NCBI RefSeq assembly: GCF_018228765.1
Contig: NZ_CP073695.1
Location: 2,527,218 to 2,591,217, forward strand
Source: Halorubrum ruber
GTDB taxonomy: Archaea; Halobacteriota; Halobacteria; Halobacteriales; Haloferacaceae
DNA length: 64,000 nt
Direction of reading: 5' to 3'
This document shows positions 5,504 through 58,059 of the stretch, in pieces. The notes below the pieces were generated by a model. That model was not told the DNA's origin. It was given only the letters and a program-made list of their open reading frames with translations, and did no database searches. The translations under genes were made by a program, and so were the position numbers. How positions within the stretch are numbered: the first letter of the stretch is position 1; each line of letters begins with the position of its first letter.

Positions 5504-5576
5504 GAACGACTCGTGAGGGGCCGAGCGCAAAACCGTGTCCGATCCGGCGAGGCGGGCGAGCGCGACCGTCGATCCC

Positions 5577-6172
5577 GGCTCTGTTGAACTCCTCCGTCGG
5601 TAACGCGTTTTGACCCGGGTTGCGGTCAATACAGACGTAGCGACGAGCGATTTCGGGAGTGGGTATCGCAGATCGGTAGCAGCGATTCGGTATTTAAGTA
5701 GTCGCCAGCGGCGGCGACGGCCGCTTATAAATAGCCGGCGGTGGCGCGCCTGCGAGCGGCCGGAGCGAAGCGGAGGCCGCGAGCCAGCCCGCGAGGGACG
5801 CGGTGAGCGCTCGAAGAGCGCGAACCGCGAGGCTGGGGAGGTGTGAGGCTGCGGTGCTGTGCGGAGTGGGTGGGGCTCAAAGGGGCAGCCGTCGAGGTGG
5901 GCGGAGGCGATGTAAGCACCGCAGGAACGAGCGAAGCGAGTGACGAGGAGCACAGCGAGCGTCCGCCCACCTCGACGGCTGGGGCTTTGGAGGCACTCGC
6001 CGCAGTAGCGTCAGTCACTTATAAACAGCTGACAGCAACACCGCGCTCCGATTTATAAACAACCACACTCACAACCTACGACACCTACTCCCGCAACCGA
6101 TCAAGAAGCACGCTTCAGTGAACCGCTGTTTCGGAGGAGGACCCATTTGAAGAACGGGATTTCACCAAAGCT
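5577..6172 (+). mobile_element. Class I repeat unit, copy 1 (596 bp, IS-like ends)
   Basis: Left end GGCTCTGTTGAACTCC; right end reads AGCTTTGGTGAAATCC on the other strand. Flanking 8-mers TCGATCCC (5569-5576) and TCGAACCC (6173-6180) match at 7 of 8 positions, as a target duplication would. Inside lies one core in + orientation (5740-5990): a hairpin whose arms are GCGGCC and GGCCGC, a second hairpin CGCTC-GAA-GAGCG closed by GCGGT/ACCGC, the box GGCTGGGGAGG (5831), CTCAAAGGGGCAGCC (5876), a 15-bp perfect stem (5891-5905 with 5962-5976) and GGCTGGGGCTTTGG. TTATAAAT boxes flank the core at 5725 and 6019. There is no transposase gene. It fills the gap between the small membrane protein and arginase. 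Confidence 0.75.
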
Positions 6173-6214
6173 TCGAACCCCACAATTCAAGCGCCGGCGC
6201 GTCGCGTTGCCGGT

Positions 6215-7120: not shown

Positions 7121-8457
7121 ATCGCCTCGGGGTCAAGCCCCGAGGCTTCCCGTTTCCACGACGTGACTTGCAGACACGGACTCGAAGTGAGTCGTGTCCG
7201 TAGCGGTCACAGTCTCCACGGGCGTGTCTTCGGGCCATCCCAGCCCTAATTCAGAAAAGCCTCTCTGTAAGACGTTCATCGCCGCATTCGCGTCCCTGTC
7301 CGTCTCAAATCCACACGACGGACAGGAGTGTTCTCTGACCCAGATGGGTTTCGCTGTCTCCACACCGCACGACGCGCACTCTTTGGTCGTGCCTCTGGCT
7401 TCGACTTGAACGACGTGACAGCCGTACAACTCGGCTTTGTATTCGAGCAGGGTGATGAACTGTCGCCACGCCGCATCCCGCTTGTTTCGAGTGTTGTGCG
7501 ACTGTTCAAGCATCCCCTTCACGTTCAGGTCTTCGACGAATACAGCGTCGTACTCGCGGACGAGCCATGTCGTTATCTTGTGCTGGTAGTCCAGCACTTT
7601 CCGACGAATCCGACGCTTGACTTTGGCAACTTCAACTCGTTGTTTCTCGTAGCTGTTCGACCCCTTCTCCTTCCGGGATAACTTACGCTGTTCGCGTCCG
7701 AGTCGCTCGTAGTCGTCTTCGAGGTCGAGCCAATCCACGGTTTTGCCGTCGCTGGTGTGGATGTAGTTGAGGATTCCGAGGTCGATACCGACGCTGTTGC
7801 TCGCGTCCAGCGATTCCACGTCGGGTTTCTCGGGGAGATCGGCGTCGTCGGTTTCGAGGCCGAAAGAGACGAACCACTCGCCAGTCGTCTCCTTCTTGAA
7901 CGTGACCTCTTTGATCGTGGCGTGGTCGGGAATCGGGCGGTGGTAACGAATCTTCACCCAACCGATTTTGCTGAAACGGACGTAAGCGAACCTGTCTTGG
8001 CCCCTCTTTTCATCGAGGTCGAAACCAGACTGGTTGTACGTCACGCTTTGATAATCGGTGGGTGCTTGCCGTTTGAGCCGACCAACGTTGTATCCCTTCT
8101 CTTTCTTTTTGCGAAGGTTCGAGAGGTTCCGATAGAAGCGTGCGACGGTGGCTTGGGCGGCCTTCGAGTGTAGTTTACTGAAGACGGGCCACTTTCGCTT
8201 CCAGTCGGGAAGTTTGTTGTTCTGGTCGTACTCACTCGGCTTATTGTCCTCCGGGGCTTGTTCGTAGTCCCAGCGGACGTGGTTGTAGAGCTGACGATGA
8301 ACATCCAGATGGTGTTCCAGTCCAGCCGCTACCTCTTGTGTCGGGTAAGCGTGGTAGCGGTGACTGTGTTCCATCGCTGTCTATCGATTAGTGATGTGTT
8401 CATTTAGTGGTTTGTATCACGAGTTGTCGGCTTCATCCCCGAGGTCAACCCTCGGGG
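7121..8457 (-). mobile_element. IS1341-type (tnpB-only IS200/IS605 family) element
   Basis: A single intact tnpB on the - strand bounded by similar hairpins. At the 3' (right) end are GCCTCGGGG / CCCCGAGGC arms at 7124-7132 and 7138-7146 with a TCAAG loop. At the 5' (left) end are CCCCGAGG / CCTCGGGG arms at 8437-8444 and 8450-8457 with a TCAAC loop. No tnpA (Y1 transposase) is present, which defines the IS1341 group, so movement would need TnpA in trans. Exact element ends are estimated from the hairpins. There is no target duplication, as expected for this family. Confidence 0.75.
7133..8374 (-). CDS. tnpB: TnpB, RNA-guided nuclease of an IS1341-type element
   Basis: A full-length 413-residue TnpB. 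The RuvC-like triad looks intact: D198 in GIDLG, E281 in FVEDLNV, D361 in DRDANAA. The zinc ribbon C333/C336/C351/C354 is complete (CASC, CPSC). In this family the protein uses an omega RNA made from the 3' end of its own gene plus adjacent DNA as guide, cutting donor sites and promoting element retention. The stop codon lies in the loop of the right-end hairpin, as is common for these elements. G+C is clearly lower than in neighbouring genes (more AAG, AAC and GAA codons), consistent with recent transfer. Confidence 0.93.
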   Translation of the reverse strand: MEHSHRYHAYPTQEVAAGLEHHLDVHRQLYNHVRWDYEQAPEDNKPSEYDQNNKLPDWKRKWPVFSKLHSKAAQATVARFYRNLSNLRKKKEKGYNVGRLKRQAPTDYQSVTYNQSGFDLDEKRGQDRFAYVRFSKIGWVKIRYHRPIPDHATIKEVTFKKETTGEWFVSFGLETDDADLPEKPDVESLDASNSVGIDLGILNYIHTSDGKTVDWLDLEDDYERLGREQRKLSRKEKGSNSYEKQRVEVAKVKRRIRRKVLDYQHKITTWLVREYDAVFVEDLNVKGMLEQSHNTRNKRDAAWRQFITLLEYKAELYGCHVVQVEARGTTKECASCGVETAKPIWVREHSCPSCGFETDRDANAAMNVLQRGFSELGLGWPEDTPVETVTATDTTHFESVSASHVVETGSLGA

Positions 8458-32992: not shown

Positions 32993-33587
32993 AGCTCTGT
33001 TGAAACCCTATTCTTCAGACACATTATCGTCTGGAACAGCCGCTCGCTGAAGAGTGCTTCTTGGTCGGTTTCGGGAGTGAGTTCCGCAGATCGGTAGCAG
33101 CGATTCGATATTTAAATAGTCGCCAGCGGCGCCGACGCCCGTTTATAAAAAGAGTGCGGTGGCGCGCCTGCGAGCGGCCGGAGCGAAGCGGAGGCCGCGA
33201 GCCAGCCCGCGAGGGACGCGGTGAGCGCTCGGAGAGCGCGAACCGCGAGGCTGGGGAGGCGTGAGGTGCGGTGCTGAGCGGTGCGGGGTGGGACTCAAAG
33301 GGGCAGCCGTCGAGGCGGGCGGAGGCGAAGTAAGCACCGCAGGAACGAGCAACGCGAGTGACGAGGAGCACAGCGAGCGTCCGCCCGCCTCGACGGCTGG
33401 GGCTTTGGAGGCACTCGCCGCAGTAGCGTCGACCATTTATAAACAGCCGACAGCAACACCGCGCTCTGGTTTATAAATAACCTCGCTCACAATGTACTAC
33501 ACCTACTCCCGAAATCGCTCGTCGCTACGTCTGTACTGAGCGATTGAGGGTGTGAAACTATCAGTCTCTGAGTATATCAACAAAGCC
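32993..33587 (+). mobile_element. Class I repeat unit, copy 5 (595 bp, IS-like ends)
   Basis: Left end AGCTCTGTTGAAACCC; right end on the other strand GGCTTTGTTGATATAC. Flanking 8-mers CTATAAAT (32985-32992) and TTATAAAT (33588-33595) match at 7 of 8. The core (33158-33408, + orientation) is the same length as in copy 1 and nearly identical, with GTCGAGGCGGGCGGA / TCCGCCCGCCTCGAC as its third stem. Compared with copy 1, the outer ~85 bp on the two sides are exchanged. No gene inside. Confidence 0.75.
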
Positions 33588-34006
33588 TTATAAATGGATG
33601 ATGGCGGATCAGCGGTGAACACCACCAACGTGCCAACCGATTTGGCATAAATGGTTGACTTCGGATCGACGGCGGACACCGCCAAAGCCCCAGCCGCTCG
33701 TTTATAAATAGTTGATTCTGGATCTGTGGCGAACACCGCCAAAGCCCCAGCCGCGAGGACTCGCGCGGCTCGCTGCGCGCTTCGGTCGCTCACTTCGTTC
33801 GCTCCCTACAGTGCTTACGTCGCCGTGCTTCGCCCTCGCGGCTGCCCCTTTGAGTCCCACCCCGCACCGCTCCGCACAGCACCTCTCACCTCCCCAGCCT
33901 CGTCAGTCGCCTCCGCTTCGCTCCGGCGACTGACTCCCTCGCGCGTGCTCCTCGCGGCCGCCGATGGCGGCCGCTCGCAGGCACGCGCCACCGCGTTCTT
34001 TTAAAT
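33588..34006 (-). repeat. Class II repeat unit, copy 6, with 57-bp tails
   Basis: Core on the - strand at 33739-33992. The second hairpin arms are GTCAGTCGCC/GGCGACTGAC around the GGAGCGAAGCGGA loop. Tail units of 57 bp lie at 33682-33738 and 33625-33681, with a degraded third unit up to the point where copy 5 ends. The 5' TATA-like box is TTTTAAATA instead of TTTATAAA. Copy 5 abuts or is inserted in this tail, at a TATAAAT site. Confidence 0.72.
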
Positions 34007-34075
34007 ATCATATCGCCGGAGCGGGGTTCAGCCGCCGCGAATCGGCGGAGAGCGGCGCAGACCGGGGCGCTTTTT

Positions 34076-40508: not shown

Positions 40509-41111
40509 GGCTCTGTCGGAACCCCCACTTTTCAGATGAATTTCGTCGGAAACGGTCGGTCGCTGAAGAGTGCTTCTCGATCGGTTGCGGGAGTGAGTAT
40601 CGCAGATCGATGGCGACGAAACGGTATTTAAATAGCCGTGAGCGACAGCGATGAGCGCTTATAAATGGCAGGCGGTGGCGCGCCTGCGAGCGGCCGGAGC
40701 GAAGCGGAGGCCGCGAGCCAGCCCGCGAGGGACGCCGCGAACGCCCGAAGGGCGTGAGCGGCGAGGTTGGGGAGGCGTGAGGTGCGGTTGCCGTGCTGGG
40801 CGGGGCGGGACTCAAAGGGGCAGCCGCGAGGCCGACGTAGGCGACGCAAGCACTGGAAGGAGCGAACGAAGTGAGCGACTGAAGCGCGCAGCGAGCGTAC
40901 GTCGGCCTCGCGGCTGGGGCTTTGGGGACGTTCACCGCCGCAGCGTCGGTCACTTATAAATAGCCGACAGCAACACCGCGGTCCAGCTTATAAACAACCA
41001 CGCAATCACACTGAGCGACGTACTACACGTACTCCCGAAATCGCTCGTCGCTACCCCTGTACTGACCAGCGCCAGCTCAGAACGCGTCACCTGTGAGGGT
41101 TCGACGGAGCC
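40509..41111 (+). mobile_element. Class I repeat unit, copy 7 (603 bp, IS-like ends)
   Basis: Left end GGCTCTGTCGGAACCC, right end on the other strand GGCTCCGTCGAACCCT: well-matched inverted ends. No convincing 8-bp duplication remains. Core in + orientation at 40674-40925. Its second hairpin (GCCGC-GAA-CGCCC-GAA-GGGCG-TGA-GCGGC) differs at most paired positions from copies 1 and 5 yet still pairs. The third stem is GCGAGGCCGACGTA / TACGTCGGCCTCGC (14 bp). It sits between brp and the zinc-ribbon gene, in the middle of the phototrophy block. Confidence 0.75.
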
Positions 41112-53336: not shown

Positions 53337-53755
53337 TTATTTATAAGTGATTGGCCGCGACTGCTGCGACTATTTATAAGTGAATACGGTGCGGTGGCGC
53401 GTGCCTGCGAGCGGCCGGTAGGCCGCGAGCAGCACGCGCGAGGGAGTCGGGCGCGACGAGGGCGACCGAAGGGAGCCCGAAGACGCGCCCGACGAGGCTG
53501 GGGAGGCGTGAGGCGCGGTTGCGGTGCTGTGCGGGGTGGGACTCAAAGGGGCAGCCGTGAGGCGGGCGCAGGCGACGCAAGCACCGCAGGGAGCGAACGA
53601 AGTGAGCGACCGAGGAGCGCAGCGAGCGTGCGCCCGCCTCGCGGCTGGGGCTTTGGCGGTGTCCGTCGTCGATCCGCAGTCGATTATTTATAAGCGAGCG
53701 GCTGGGGCTTTGTAGGAATCCGCCACCGTGATGCCATCAACTACCACTTATAAAT
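53337..53755 (+). repeat. Class II repeat unit, copy 8, with 57-bp tail
   Basis: Core in + orientation at 53393-53656. P1 arms GCGCGTGC (53397) and GCACGCGC (53432) enclose GCGGCC-GGTA-GGCCGC. P2 is GTCGGGCGCG (53446) with CGCGCCCGAC (53484). The third stem GTGAGGCGGGCGCA / TGCGCCCGCCTCGC is nearly perfect. One 57-bp tail unit at 53657-53713 repeats GGCTGGGGCTTTGT. TATTTATAAG boxes lie on both sides. It separates aroD from the rhomboid gene. Confidence 0.75.
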
Positions 53756-57575: not shown

Positions 57576-57985
57576 TTTATAAATAAACAACGGCGCTGCG
57601 GCGAATGCCTCCGATTCCCCCAGCTGCTCGCTTATAAATAGTCGACTGCGGATCGACCGCGAACACCTCCAAAGCCTCAGCTGCTCGCTTATAAATAATC
57701 GACTACGGATCGACCGCGAACACCTCCAAAGCCCCAGCCGCGAGGACTCGATGGGCTCGCTGCGGTCCTCGTCGCTCACTACGTTCGCTCCTGCGGTCCT
57801 TGCGTCGCCCGTCTTCGTCCTCGCGGCTGCCCCTTTGAGTCCCGCCCAGCACAGCAACCACAGCCTCACACCTCCCCAGCCTCGCGGTTCGTTCGGAGCT
57901 CCCTGCGGTCGCCCCTCACTCACCGCGTCCCTCGCGCGTGCGACTCGCGGCCGCCGAGGGCGGCCGCTCGCCGGCACGCGCCACC
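57576..57985 (-). repeat. Class II repeat unit, copy 9, with 57-bp tails
   Basis: Core on the - strand at 57726-57985. P1 arms GCGCGTGC/GCACGCGC; the second stem is GCGGT/ACCGC around a longer, less regular loop; the third stem GCGAGGAC/GTCCTCGC is shorter than in other copies. The tail has one full 57-bp unit (57669-57725) and a degraded 58-bp unit (57611-57668) before a TTTATAAAT at 57576. The 5' TATA box is missing. It lies between the MBL and MinD-like genes. Confidence 0.72.
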
Positions 57986-58059
57986 GCGGGACAGTGCGGG
58001 ACGGTTCCGCCGCGACCGCGATGGGTAGCTTTTATTCGGAGCGCCCGGCGAGCGGGCGT

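Follow-up and report, generated by a model that had tools for sequence, protein, structure and literature searches.

What happens inside a mobile repeat whose ends appear to have changed sides? The window analysed here, a 64,000-nucleotide stretch of the Halorubrum ruber genome (contig NZ_CP073695.1, positions 2,527,218 to 2,591,217; genome of 3.02 Mb in a single contig), contains a GC-rich, non-coding repeat in about nine copies. Copies 1, 5 and 7 carry extra arms and an outer frame, and most of the other copies consist of the inner part alone. From the sequence of the window, the flanks of copy 1 had been predicted to be exchanged relative to those of copies 5 and 7, with two possible causes, namely inversion of the core inside its frame or recombination of the ends between copies. 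Comparing the copies with one another and across 52 genomes, H. ruber included, we found that the frame stays where it is, and that the cassette, bounded by inverted repeats, changes its orientation and takes on new sequence from other genomic copies, with an exchange border of about 10 bp around the motif CGGGAGT. The locus therefore displays flipping together with cassette turnover rather than a simple two-state switch.

Copy 1 is made of three layers: a frame resembling a miniature inverted-repeat transposable element (MITE), a core cassette and the inner GC-rich repeat, which is present in hundreds of copies per genome (331-335 first-look candidates, 40 of them scored, in each of H. ruber and the relatives G017 and G074; G and L numbers denote genomes and loci of our sample). 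When the parts of copy 5 were compared with the window by BLASTN, all three parts of copies 5 and 7 lay on the plus strand, an order that we refer to as native. In agreement with the original prediction, the right half of the copy 5 frame matched the left flank of copy 1 on the minus strand (5653-5623, 93.5% over 31 bp) and the left half matched the right flank, also on the minus strand (6172-6088, 75% over 85 bp), with the core itself unexchanged in strand (5667-6093, plus, 91.8% over 428 bp). Copy 1 thus reads, in terms of copy 5, reverse-complemented right frame half, core, reverse-complemented left frame half, which we call swapped. The switch lies at the inverted motifs expected beside the core, CGGGAGT at 5654-5660 and ACTCCCG at 6087-6093. 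The proposed borders also proved exact: the element starts at 5577 and stops at 6172 with terminal inverted repeats, GGCTCTGTTGAAC and, reverse-complemented, AGCTTTGGTGAAA, flanked by target duplications (TCGATCCC and TCGAACCC) that agree at 7 of 8 bases. The frame with its contents measures about 595 bp, the non-coding core about 440 bp and each inverted repeat at the core border 23 bp; coordinates are given in the table.

Hidden Markov models (HMMs) of the four modules called 106 distinct two-armed cores among the fetched Halorubrum loci, a set that is not exhaustive, having been fetched with native queries and a core-end pattern before a later search with one end of copy 1. Both frame halves were called around 53 of these cores, 23 native and 30 swapped, a ratio that does not differ from 1:1 (P = 0.41); the others had one frame half (15 and 10) or no frame call (28). 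None of the 53 was mixed, against about 26 expected if the halves were independent, and for this reason we conclude that the core turns as a unit. Recombination of ends between copies, the second of the two predicted causes, was rejected on the strength of the lack of mixed copies among these 53 and of the vertical inheritance of the frames at orthologous loci described below. A ratio close to 1:1 without any mixed copies could also be expected if native and swapped elements were two old subfamilies that arose by one inversion and spread separately by transposition. We consider this extremely unlikely, as it is contradicted by the occurrence of the same insertion site in both orientations across species.

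Such cases were found at five loci. Orthology was accepted when two flanks matched, each over at least 150 bp and with at least 78% identity. Under this rule, the arm-bearing cores formed 21 orthologous groups, six of them with both orientations, or 5 of 20 after the L015 and L050 groups, which match in one flank, had been merged into one locus. The opposing copies are those of H. ruber L003 versus G074 (L003/L190); H. ruber L005, G074 and G017 versus Atlit-26R; H. ruber L015, G074 and G032 versus G017, G006, G002 and G008; window copy 7, G074 and G007 versus H. distributum; and H. ruber L023 versus Atlit-26R and G074 (L023/L328). The inversion half of the original prediction is thus upheld, and the outcome named as speaking against it, a single fixed orientation everywhere, was not found across species. 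Copy 7 gives the flip a direction. Both flanks of its site were present in 19 genomes, with the whole element in four, frame remains in one (G034) and neither in 14. Among the whole elements, those of H. ruber, G074 and G007 are native and agree with each other, and that of H. distributum is inverted; therefore, the insertion is common to them and the flip came later, on the H. distributum branch, a second point against two old subfamilies. In G034 (L500), the frame remains upstream of the copy 7 flank have different contents and possibly represent a decayed or replaced element.

As a control, we counted inner repeats without arms. Both orientations were seen in 0 of 17 strict groups (one artefact removed) and in 0 of 21 further groups without an arm-bearing member, 0 of 38 in total, and the difference from arm-bearing cores is significant by Fisher's test for the pooled groups (P = 0.0034) and borderline for the strict class alone (P = 0.0498). 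Flags dropped before counting were the arm-free L405 and, in the mixed class, window 33150/33728, L017, L021, L115 and L121, which are neighbouring opposite copies of a single locus sharing a flank. Pairings of arm-bearing with arm-free copies in opposite orientation (L186 and L334 versus L085; L237 versus L079 and L268; L218 versus L081 and L394) entered neither count. In the first of these, the H. ruber copy (L085/L019) has the left frame half (Lf) and no recognised arms, and lies opposite to its arm-bearing orthologs L186 and L334; it may be a sixth flipped locus. An earlier and smaller control run had given 40 pairs in the same orientation and two inverted ones, and these two were rejected as orthologs because each rests on one flank at 68-71% identity.

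Since draft genomes are among several of the inverted cases (H. distributum, Atlit-26R), we also considered that the inversions might be short-read misassemblies at a multi-copy repeat. This is very improbable: flips also separate the single-contig H. ruber genome from the 3-contig G074 (L003/L190 and L023/L328), the arm-free repeats, equally repetitive and more numerous, show none, and the cores differ from one another by about 10-20%.

Alignment of the ends on CGGGAGT revealed the inverted repeat YGAKCGATWKCGGGAGTRNGTRT, in which the CGGGAGT positions are 93-100% conserved. As outside conservation in unframed copies begins at position -10, the inverted repeat belongs to the cassette. Mutual information in the 53 two-sided copies tied positions at and beyond -7, as well as -4, to the frame and positions from +7 inward to the core end, and tied -3 to +6 to neither. 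The frame and end combinations number 23, 30, 30 and 23, so that no linkage is left between the two sides over a distance of about 10 bp, and the switch from frame to core maps to these 10 bp (TWKCGGGAGT) within the 23-bp inverted repeat. A switch so complete and so narrow is what a dedicated site-specific recombinase, encoded elsewhere and acting on the 23-bp repeat in a genome-wide inverton or shufflon system, could produce. The strong conservation of CGGGAGT, the end of outside conservation at -10 where no frame is present, and the failure of the shorter MITE terminal repeats to flip the frame in 12 of 12 groups point the same way. Such an enzyme would account for the narrow border and the inactive MITE ends as well as homology-guided exchange does. 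However, crossovers spread over 23 bp of homology would map similarly, ordinary ectopic exchange is already seen to operate in the turnover of arm-free sequences, and no recombinase was identified, no search having been aimed at one. We regard a recombinase as a possible explanation that falls well short of being the probable one.

Orientation is only one of the properties that the cores change. In 15 framed ortholog pairs, the orthologous frame ranked third or better among 77 in 14 cases and the orthologous core in one, showing that frames are vertically inherited and cores are not. Contrary to expectation, inverted cores did not match their orthologs best, another core being closer in all 11 pairs compared. 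Among 28 pairs of the same orientation, the arms just inside the border ranked third or better in 8 (left) and 5 (right), and among 10 inverted pairs in 1 (left) and 0 (right); turnover thus extends to the core ends, the arms being nearly as shuffled as the rest. Tracts of 96-99% identity shared between different loci, which often end at the core border, bear witness to recent copying. L020 and L022 are 99.2% identical from core base 1 to 9 bases past the end, L215 and L216 are 98.2% identical with limits from -4 to 0 at the borders, and L227 (native) and L230 (swapped) share 96.1% over the whole core in opposite frame orientation. Arm-free repeats turn over as well (mutual best matches in 2 of 20 pairs). 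Two facts thus call for an explanation: all classes of copy exchange their content, but only those with the inverted repeats lose their orientation. Vertical cores were seen, among the compared pairs, only in L050/L055, L097/L164, L171/L198 and partly L011/L161, all of the same orientation. Counts of orientation changes on a core tree were dropped, since cores are not inherited with their loci and such a tree cannot track the loci. Turnover of the inner repeat between loci was seen genome-wide, window copies 2, 3, 4, 6, 8 and 9 being inner repeats.

The outer frame behaves differently. The copy 1 locus was recovered from 29 relatives in the 52 genomes searched, and the element was absent from all 29. 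Because of this, and because the G017 junction holds a single GTCGATCCCCACCATTGAAGCGCC, the arrival of copy 1, as a single unit of about 595 bp, is placed after its lineage and that of G017 had separated. Ends could be recognised in 33 two-sided copies, some of which are orthologs and hence not independent; the target duplications match in at least 6 of 8 bases in 21 of them, 12 matching in 7 or 8 bases and three in all 8, and copy 7 matches in only 3. A unit of 1575 bp in G062 (L488:1037-2611) has frame-like ends (89% over 65 bp to Lf, and 92% over 37 bp at the other end) around a DDE_Tnp_IS240 transposase (PF13610), a domain that we take to mark the IS6 family. With related terminal repeats and 8-bp duplications both present, the frame fits a MITE of an IS6-type element. 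PF13610 had no match in the H. ruber genome, although copy 1 inserted after the G017 split; the enzyme may have disappeared from this genome or diverged too far to be recognised. MITEs are mobilised in trans, so a transposase in the same genome is not a defining feature. Despite its terminal inverted repeats (about 13-17 bp, some 600 bp apart), the frame kept its orientation in 12 of 12 framed groups with two flanks; L217/L241, a pair with a single flank and a possible whole-frame inversion, was left out under the two-flank rule. The same frame ends enclose unrelated cargo in other genomes. At L458:1501-2553, frame-type ends carry a MarR-like regulator (PF12802, above cut-off) and a PemK/MazF-like protein (PF02452, below cut-off); other cargo is found at L451, L468 and L449, and small putative membrane or lipoprotein genes elsewhere. 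IS6-type ends may thus ferry small gene modules in Halorubrum.

If the frame is mobile, the core could in principle be a small transposable element of its own, with terminal inverted repeats, which would leave a pre-existing near-palindromic site and re-enter it time and again, in either orientation. Inverted repeats do stand at its ends, conservation starts at -10 in sites of unrelated context, and 28 of the 106 arm-bearing cores lack a recognisable frame. On the other hand, no coreless frame was found with a joined 168-bp frame query in the 52 genomes, none of the matches listed spanning both halves, no target duplication could be defined and no empty site was recovered (the orthologous region of L005 gave none usable). 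A core that jumps by itself is thus unlikely.

As the best explanation of these results, we lean, with some reserve, towards a three-layer element whose cassettes are exchanged by homology at the near-identical inverted repeats, with no enzyme of their own. The two repeats would supply a short stretch of homology at each end, so that a broken or gapped core could be mended with another cassette as template, or one repeat could recombine with its partner. Because both ends are alike, the cassette could return either way round. Inner-repeat copies without these ends would exchange through internal homology only, which would preserve orientation. A dedicated enzyme is not needed for homology-guided exchange and none turned up, in work that included no search aimed at recombinases. 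Several observations weigh against this explanation. At about 20 bp, the inverted repeats offer little length for homologous recombination; no whole frame was flipped through its MITE terminal repeats in the 12 groups, so the core repeats could be special; the strict control by itself is only borderline (P = 0.0498); and no ortholog pair has a core that is both clearly vertical and inverted. The original prediction had not foreseen that core sequence would mostly differ between orthologs, and since no pair combines a vertical core with inversion, these comparisons stop short of showing one and the same DNA simply inverted in place.

In a consensus of the core, TTTAAA/TTATAAA-like boxes are conserved at both ends, and the consensus fold of 40 cores has -41.3 kcal/mol, compared with -2 to -10 for 10 column-shuffled alignments, a shuffling that also breaks dinucleotides. 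At the gathering score, the core matches no RNA family of Rfam; the only Rfam match in the window is the S15-Halobacteria ribosomal protein leader (RF03143, 30856-30926, 72.1 bits). A bolder and rather doubtful idea is that the dozens of non-coding cassettes bounded by the inverted repeat make up a scattered, non-coding counterpart of a shufflon, in which a dedicated recombinase inverts the cassettes and exchanges them between fixed docking sites on the chromosome, and that they possibly set the direction of transcription from the TATA-like boxes near both ends.

Bacterial invertons and invertible promoters are short segments between inverted repeats that occur in both orientations at one site and are turned by a dedicated site-specific recombinase. 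A short segment bounded by inverted repeats is likewise found here in both orientations at the same site, at 5 of 20 orthologous loci; in contrast to invertons, there are many dispersed copies, the content is also replaced, the orientations are known from comparing genomes, and no recombinase was identified (none was searched for). The 'SwitchRepeats' of Haloquadratum walsbyi are identical positions with different repeats or with the same repeat reversed (PMC3119063). Both outcomes are present at the Halorubrum orthologous loci, making this descriptively the same phenomenon, but the published term seems to be a bookkeeping category for whole mobile repeats, whereas we find a defined inner cassette in a fixed frame with a mapped border. 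The frame resembles haloarchaeal MITEs in sharing terminal inverted repeats with an element that bears a transposase, in its 8-bp duplication and in lacking a transposase itself, and differs from them in that its ends carry other cargo elsewhere and, here, a second cassette that behaves separately (PMC3119063). Palindrome-associated transposable elements (PATEs) are short non-coding mobile repeats of haloarchaea, of about 500 bp, including one of 489 bp in the H. lacusprofundi virus HRTV-DL1; they have near-terminal palindromes, no terminal inverted repeats and no target duplication (PMC3119063, PMC10544981). The Halorubrum frame is also short, non-coding and mobile, but has the terminal repeats and duplications that PATEs lack, and identity with them was rejected. 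As for small mobile repeats (SMRs), with inverted repeats unrelated to known transposons and no target duplication, the core has inverted repeats of its own, and no empty site was recovered. The core fits none of the described classes that could be tested, and the frame fits an IS6-type MITE. The core had no match in 50,697 phage records (inclusion of HRTV-DL1 among them unchecked), its end pattern had none in IMG/VR, and plasmids gave only partial matches (in 4 and 5 plasmids). A literature search, with supplementary tables outside its scope, found no description of the Halorubrum repeat or of its inversion.

One mobile repeat can thus have separate histories, its outside inherited as part of the chromosome and its inside turned or replaced up to a sharp border. 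This turns the loci into a convenient natural system in which exchange through short homology, or site-specific inversion, can be assayed in polyploid haloarchaea, and offers a concrete, testable mechanism for the unexplained 'SwitchRepeats' of Haloquadratum. It is also a warning that such repeats are unusable as orthologous markers, even at common insertion sites.

Features of the window, with positions counted from its first nucleotide (Lf and Rf, left and right frame halves)
Feature	Position	Strand	Basis or remark
Copy 1, complete frame (IS6-type MITE ends) and core, swapped (frame minus, core plus)	5577..6172	-	
Copy 1, left 8-bp target duplication TCGATCCC	5569..5576		G017 empty site holds a single TCGATCCC
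Copy 1, frame half Rf (reverse complement), terminal repeat GGCTCTGTTGAAC	5577..5653	-	BLASTN; Rf HMM 64.6 bits on L002
Left inverted repeat at core border, consensus YGAKCGATWKCGGGAGTRNGTRT	5644..5666	+	
Copy 1, core cassette, CGGGAGT to ACTCCCG	5654..6093	+	
Right inverted repeat at core border	6081..6103	-	
Copy 1, frame half Lf (reverse complement), terminal repeat AGCTTTGGTGAAA	6094..6172	-	BLASTN; Lf HMM 68.9 bits on L002
Copy 1, right target duplication TCGAACCC	6173..6180		
Copy 5, frame and core, native; target duplication ctataaat/ttataaat	32993..33587	+	
Copy 5, core cassette	33072..33511	+	
Copy 6, inner repeat without arms and without CGGGAGT inverted repeats; comparison class	33728..34007	-	
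Copy 7, frame and core, native; core inverted at the H. distributum orthologous locus (L090/L329/L495)	40509..41111	+	
Copy 7, core cassette	40588..41037	+	
Copy 8, inner repeat without arms; comparison class; orthologs in the same orientation	53390..53743	+	
Copy 9, inner repeat without arms; comparison class; orthologs in the same orientation	57619..58000	-	

Two further features of the window were observed. At copy 6 (33599-33760), repeated blocks lie around CCAAAGCCCCAGCCGC and include TTTATAAATAG-like boxes, which looks like a tandem duplication of one inner-repeat end. Copy 1 adjoins a gene that is presumably arginase-like, beside which stands a TnpB-like gene of IS605 type (7133-8374; PF07282, PF01385).
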